Shown here in pieces: positions 35,053-36,132 of a stretch of DNA of 42,574 nt (position 1 is its first letter; each line of letters starts with the position of its first letter). Below the pieces are notes generated by a model. The model did no database searches and was not told the DNA's origin. It worked only from the letters and a program-made list of their open reading frames with translations. Source of the stretch: Gammaproteobacteria bacterium (GTDB lineage: Bacteria; Pseudomonadota; Gammaproteobacteria; SZUA-229). The stretch spans positions 1 to 42,574 of the forward strand of contig JAOULC010000026.1 in the NCBI GenBank assembly GCA_029882215.1, given 5' to 3'. The translations under genes and the position numbers were made by a program.

Positions 35053-36132
35053 TTACCGCTGTTCAGAGACAGTGCCATGTTCCACGTGGAACATCTTCTG
35101 CTCTGGCCATAATGACAAATCGACTGCATTCTTTTCAATCGATGTAATAAATATTTGTGCAGGTAGTTCCGACATCATTTTTAGAATTTTTTGCCGATGT
35201 TGAATATCTAGCTCTGCGGGTAAATCATCAAATAATATAACGCTATTTTTGTTTGTTGCCTGATTAAATAACAAACCCTGCATCAGCCGTAATAATACCA
35301 CTAAAGTCTTCTGTTGACCTCTTGAAACCGCTGTTTCTGCGTTTAATCCGTTAATTTTAAAGCGTAAATCAGCGCGGTGTGGTCCCGCGTGTGTAAAGCC
35401 TCTTTCCATATCGGTATTAAAGCCTTGCTGAAGGACAAAAGCCAAATCGTTATCTTTATTCCAGCCTCTCTGATAGCTGATTTTTATTTCTTTATCATCG
35501 AATAGCAGAGTTTGAAACTGATTAACCAGAGATTGTAATGACTGAATATAGTTCGCGCGTAATTGATCGATAATATTCGCCGTATCAATAATCTGCTTAT
35601 CCCATATATGAAAAGATTTTGCTGGCTGCTTTGAGCGAAGTGCAGCATTTCTTTGTTTTAATGCTTTTTGATAACGCTGCCAGATAGAATAAAAAGATTG
35701 TTCCACGTGGAACAGCCCCCAATCTATAAACTGACGTCTTTCATTTGGCCCGCCAGAAACTAACTGGTGGCTTTCCGGGTGCAAGGCAATAACCGGAAGT
35801 TGAATGGCTAAGTCTGATAAGCGGCTTATTTTTTCACCATCTAACTTAATCAGTAGCTTTTCTCTATCATGCAGTATGCCTGCCGGAATCAGGCGATCCT
35901 GGGTAGATTGTAATTTACTAAAGATATGCATGCGCTGTGCATCGACATTCATGATGTCTTTAATTTTATTGGTCAGAAATGAGCGGCCATGAGCCAGATA
36001 GTAGATGGTTTCCAGTAAACTGGTTTTACCGGAGGCATTATCACCATAGATAAGATTAACAGTTGGGCAGGGCTCAATACCCAACTGTTTTATATTTCTA
36101 AAGCCCTGTGATTCCAGATAAGCAAGACTCAT
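35053..36132 (-). CDS. recF: RecF recombination/repair ATPase
   Basis: A 359-residue SMC-like ATPase that helps load RecA at single-strand gaps. Walker A is '[10 protein letters not shown]' (30-37 core); the ABC signature region '[18 protein letters not shown]' and Walker B '[12 protein letters not shown]' are present. The gene lies 27 bp after dnaN and 28 bp before gyrB. It is odd in containing two perfect 16-bp parS palindromes in its coding sequence, both read through as a Phe-His-Val-Glu run ('GLFHVEQ' and 'KMFHVEHG'), so the DNA site appears to be superimposed on tolerant protein positions. Confidence 0.97.
35078..35093. other. parS centromere-like site 1
   Basis: TGTTCCACGTGGAACA, a perfect 16-bp palindrome. 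It matches the chromosomal parS (ParB-binding) sequence of Pseudomonas-type and many other bacteria. It lies within the 3' end of recF, close to the predicted origin, the usual position. ParB spreading from it would organise the origin; parA and parB are expected beyond mnmE, outside the window. Confidence 0.93.
35699..35714. other. parS centromere-like site 2
   Basis: A second identical TGTTCCACGTGGAACA palindrome, 621 bp from the first, again within recF. An exact 16-bp repeat in one gene is very unlikely by chance and supports the parS call for both. No third copy was found by eye in the rest of the window. Confidence 0.93.

Follow-up and report, generated by a model that had tools for sequence, protein, structure and literature searches.

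Bacterial ParABS systems act through ParB, which is loaded at parS, forms a closed CTP clamp and slides outward along the DNA; ParA moves the resulting complex and SMC is recruited to it. In Bacillus subtilis and Caulobacter, parS follows the same consensus as the sites considered here and is clustered near the origin, although these organisms have more sites or sites in other positions. The closest parallel is found in Pseudomonas aeruginosa, whose chromosome carries ten parS, including an oriC-proximal group of four in which parS3 and parS4 are intergenic (PMC4368675, PMC5521831). In this bacterium parS1 and parS2 are located inside recF, where ParB acts (PMC5521831, PMC3909081), and the parS nearest to oriC, ~4 kb away, is in this gene (PMC3909081). 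Binding of ParB in the cell and a requirement for origin segregation have been shown for the oriC-proximal cluster, of which one of the four sites suffices for segregation (PMC4368675).

The DNA analysed here, a stretch of 42,574 nucleotides from a gammaproteobacterial draft genome (hereafter the window), presents a similar arrangement. Its two sites resemble parS1 and parS2 of P. aeruginosa in that they are of the same 16-bp type, occupy the same gene in two copies and lie at the same distance from oriC, and in named Pseudomonas loci the sites occupy the codons that match those of the window. P. aeruginosa has ten parS, whereas the pair in recF is all that is visible in the present draft genome. 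The recF placement is therefore already known from P. aeruginosa and is not new; in the open literature, the P. aeruginosa papers were the only ones we found to place parS in recF. We found no open paper on a class-wide placement, on its effect on RecF residues or on sites that outlive recF, the main survey (Livny et al. 2007) lying outside our coverage.

Results

The recF gene of the window contains two exact copies of TGTTCCACGTGGAACA, a 16-bp palindrome of the form TGTTYCACGTGRAACA, whose starts are 621 bp (207 codons) apart (Table 1). Both share a reading register, xTG TTC CAC GTG GAA CAx, and the original prediction of two identical 16-mers at this spacing, each encoding Phe-His-Val-Glu, is borne out. 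No third copy of TGTTCCACGTGGAACA occurs in the window even at three mismatches, a stringency at which shuffled sequences average 0.18 matches. When the whole draft genome (3,425,802 bases in 144 contigs, 98.15% complete) was scanned with up to two mismatches, the two recF copies were the sole matches and the reversed pattern gave zero, while the chance expectation for one exact 16-mer match in 3.43 Mb is ~0.0008 (3.43e6/4^16). The anticipated absence of scattered copies thus holds in this assembly, which has its two sites grouped near oriC, and it is possible that additional parS are present in unassembled DNA.

Table 1. Positions of recF, its neighbors, the two parS and the probable origin in the window
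Feature	Position	Strand	Basis or remarks
gyrB, downstream neighbor of recF	32607..35024	-	ORF; aligns with GyrB of relatives; likely ATG near 35024
recF, host of both sites (359 aa)	35053..36132	-	TIGR00611, E=2.0e-107, 359 bits; Pfam SMC_N
parS, recF 3' end (second site)	35078..35093		codons 347-352, MFHVEH; exact 16-mer; aligned position is parS in 91/110 class RecF genes
parS, mid-recF (first site)	35699..35714		codons 140-145, LFHVEQ; exact 16-mer; aligned position is parS in 96/110 class RecF genes
dnaN, upstream neighbor of recF	36160..37260	-	ORF; aligns with DnaN of relatives
DnaA boxes (TTATCCACA, three copies) in the dnaA-rnpA interval, probable oriC	39125..39180		pattern scan

The minus strand carries gyrB-recF-dnaN-dnaA in this order, and beyond it the plus strand carries rnpA, yidC and the beginning of mnmE, the genes being named partly through alignment with relatives. 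The cluster of three DnaA boxes places the recF sites 3.4-4.1 kb from the probable origin. A TTG-started gyrB ORF overlaps the site at 35078, though the in-frame ATG, which leaves both parS outside gyrB, is the likelier start.

The genome encodes a full-length ParB of 292 aa (TIGR00180, 3.7e-57) with ParB_N, HTH_ParB (HTH) and ParB_C (dimerisation) domains, with its cognate ParA encoded directly upstream, and SMC is present, divided between two contigs. With an exact consensus match, proximity to the DnaA boxes and the genes for ParA, ParB and SMC in the same genome, the proposed identity of the 16-mers as parS near oriC and the expected ParB homologue are upheld. A position of parAB downstream of mnmE had been put forward for checking; these genes do not directly follow mnmE but lie after mnmG-rsmG on a contig other than that of recF (G000:C32; L035, L146). 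As mnmE was not seen among ORFs read by eye in the 15 kb preceding mnmG-rsmG-parAB on that contig, mnmE and mnmG seem to occupy separate places in this genome. In a congener (G003:C21) a single contig carries parB and recF 77 kb apart, and the distance is 15-33 kb in four further members of the family (G007, G009, G016 and G027). The parAB operon changes place, and the parS pair in recF stays put. In G028 (G028:C1), parB is ~211 kb from recF, and parAB again follows mnmG-rsmG, with mnmE and the origin genes located elsewhere.

Within the family, nearly all related genomes have the pair, again 621 bp apart; the exceptions, G006 and G014 (rated 97-99% complete), also lack a dnaN match, and the region is therefore probably unassembled in both. 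For the class as a whole, 131 genomes, roughly one per family, yielded 111 recF genes, of which 110, including that of the window, were aligned, and a site was counted when it lay within two mismatches of TGTTYCACGTGRAACN. Despite a median RecF identity to the window of 35%, at least one site is present in 104 of these 110 genes: 83 have both, at FHVE-aligned codons near residues 140 and 347, 13 only the first and 8 only the second, leaving 6 with neither. One gene scored as lacking the second site (L042) is truncated at the edge of a contig, the remaining site being located on contig C72. The spacing of the pair ranges over 600-669 bp and, since both sites stay in frame, is in every case divisible by three. 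Conservation of the site DNA in related recF genes, part of the original prediction, thus extends across most of the class, and the accompanying suggestion that the placement is specific to a narrow lineage is rejected by the same survey and by its prior description in P. aeruginosa (PMC5521831, PMC3909081). Elsewhere in the phylum, outside the class, a site was found in 0 of 26 recF genes. All six class genomes without either recF site have ParB, and one class genome assembled in 300 contigs (G141) lacks a ParB match yet keeps site 2, reflecting either an assembly gap or a recent loss. A contig scan with an FHVE-containing peptide pattern, biased to site 1 at the protein level, supplied names and examples only, not frequencies.

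The codons at both sites are nearly invariant. Of the 182 cases that read FHV[EK] (both sites pooled), 177 have the codons CAC-GTG-RAA, where the codon usage of the individual genes predicts 12.6, in counts uncorrected for phylogeny; separately, the figures are 91/93 against 6.2 at the first site and 86/89 against 6.4 at the second. A control histidine, His252, which is conserved in 94 recF genes, is encoded by CAC in 47 and CAT in 47, and shared ancestry therefore does not explain the bias. When 178 conserved recF columns were scanned, the seven strongest in codon bias all fell within the two sites. The two inner variable bases (Y and R) covary in the manner demanded by a palindrome, clearly at site 1 (Fisher p = 1e-5, uncorrected for phylogeny) and weakly at site 2 (p = 0.02). 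The proposal that the coding sequence has been kept compatible with a ParB-binding site is well supported by these counts.

Genes that lack the DNA site reveal what remains at the protein level. At the first place they read FHNE, FYQT, FYRE and similar, and at the second FTVE, FQLA or FSVL. F-[HY] persists at the first place in most genes even after parS loss, which argues that these two residues are wanted by the protein; once the DNA site is lost, V-E has nearly always given way to other residues, an exception being a Photobacterium locus with FHVE and no DNA site. At the first place, then, the protein would need F-[HY], with V-[EK] being dictated by parS. The sites are absent from ParB-less or enterobacterial-type members, which have FHHH or FHNE and FEV, FQV, FRVE or FTVE instead: two f134 genomes without ParB, an f136 member (G202) with only sub-threshold ParB matches, and E. 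coli and Xenorhabdus, which are not known to have chromosomal ParABS. Vibrio and Shewanella loci (L202, L206, L209, L223, L271) have lost the first site and retain the second only in the form GTTYCATGTGGARC.

Several individual genes carry altered sites. The recF of L130 (G115) has GTTTCATATGAAAC at both sites, the same altered core appearing in each as if shifted in step, and that of L108 (G039) likewise has one altered core shared by both; a change in ParB specificity is a possible explanation for these matched shifts. In L143 (G065) the first site is GTTCTACGTAGAAC, a His-to-Tyr change that alters the protein and keeps the palindrome.

In class members without a recF match, dnaN was searched for and the gap downstream of it was read. 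Fifteen members lack recF and have dnaN directly adjoining gyrB, and in nine of them the gap, 55-252 bp, holds exact GTTYCACGTGRAAC parS, either one (L301, L302, L304) or two (L299, L305, L306, L307, L309, L318) placed 26-43 bp apart. ParB is present in all nine. Gap parS in recF-less members is also recorded for L290-L292 and L294. The six without a gap site comprise L300 and L315, which are reduced and have no ParB, and L311, L312, L314 and L316, a fully supported clade branching outside the others in a DnaN-GyrB tree. On this tree (FastTree), the recF losses that kept a site fall in about five places, with good support for three (L301; L299 and L305; L304, L306, L307 and L318) and weak support for two. 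In some gaps the translation still resembles the tail of RecF (LFHVKHQ-stop in L318, MFHVEHFN-stop in L301), which suggests that the surviving gap site is the former recF site. A recF-less genome belonging to the outlying clade, L295 (G122), has three parS at 1884, 2073 and 2998, within ~1.1 kb, near its parB and away from the dnaN-gyrB gap.

Discussion

Our findings identify the two 16-mers, almost certainly, as parS, the ParB loading sites that form the sole chromosomal centromere cluster visible in this genome, and we infer that ParB binds at 35078 and 35699 in this organism. By analogy with described systems, ParB dimers would load at the recF sites as CTP-dependent clamps and slide into the flanking dnaN-recF-gyrB DNA; the ParB complex would then be moved by ParA and recruit SMC, with the consequence that the origin is the first region to segregate. 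The whole visible cluster would consist of the two recF sites.

A different logic would place the constraint in the protein, such that RecF itself needs Phe-His-Val-Glu at both places and the palindrome is a by-product. FHV[EK] is indeed frequent at both positions across the class, and the retention of F-[HY] at the first place after parS loss speaks for some demand of this kind. A requirement for residues does not, however, fix synonymous codons, as observed in 177 of 182 cases against ~12.6 expected while His252 is split evenly, and the near-universal replacement of V-E once the DNA site is gone (the Photobacterium locus excepted), together with the persistence of the DNA without the protein in nine recF-less genomes, leaves this explanation highly improbable; in its protein-only form it is rejected by the codon test. 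We assign a similarly minute probability to the palindromes serving another regulator of the dnaA-dnaN-recF-gyrB operon, or forming RNA hairpins in its transcript. The sites do lie within the operon, and in P. aeruginosa an excess of ParB reduces expression of genes in this region, such that a regulatory side effect is possible (PMC5521831). Against this, the sites match the ParB consensus exactly, and those Enterobacterales- or Pasteurellaceae-type genomes that were checked and have no convincing chromosomal ParB are without the sites as well; in P. aeruginosa without ParB or parS, moreover, expression is altered only near the intergenic parS3/4 and not near the intragenic parS1/2 (PMC5521831).

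Because the codons are fixed and parS survives the loss of recF, it is the DNA element that is preserved, and RecF is shaped by it; conservation at the DNA level is apparent in the codon tests, in the class-wide tests and in this retention. RecF would already have required F-[HY] in its middle, or FxV at its C-terminus, where the sites sit, and parS could therefore have been encoded there at low cost. Selection at the DNA level would then have fixed both the choice among synonymous codons and the neighboring V-[EK] residues, and upon deletion of recF the sites would have been retained in the dnaN-gyrB gap. Read in this way, the gammaproteobacterial centromere is very probably an ancient element with a fixed place in the dnaN-gyrB interval, which resides in recF, dictates codons and residues there, and has outlasted repeated losses of its host gene as the spacing of its sites contracted from ~620 to ~26-43 bp. 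Selection would accordingly act on the presence of parS and its position near oriC rather than on spacing.

This arrangement is comparable to other overlapping codes, in which a coding sequence carries a second DNA signal and a protein-binding site constrains codons and residues. It differs from them in that the host gene can vanish while the site stays. A chromosome-level DNA signal is thereby seen shaping the sequence of a conserved protein, and conservation of residues ~140-145 and 347-352 in RecF of Gammaproteobacteria should not by itself be taken to imply a functional protein motif. The class also offers natural experiments, with recF gone and parS kept in some members and ParB absent and parS lost in others. 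Of two Pseudomonas chlororaphis records (L214 versus L213), one has its first site broken by synonymous changes (CAC GTC GAG) and the other has it intact, providing a natural single-site knockout.
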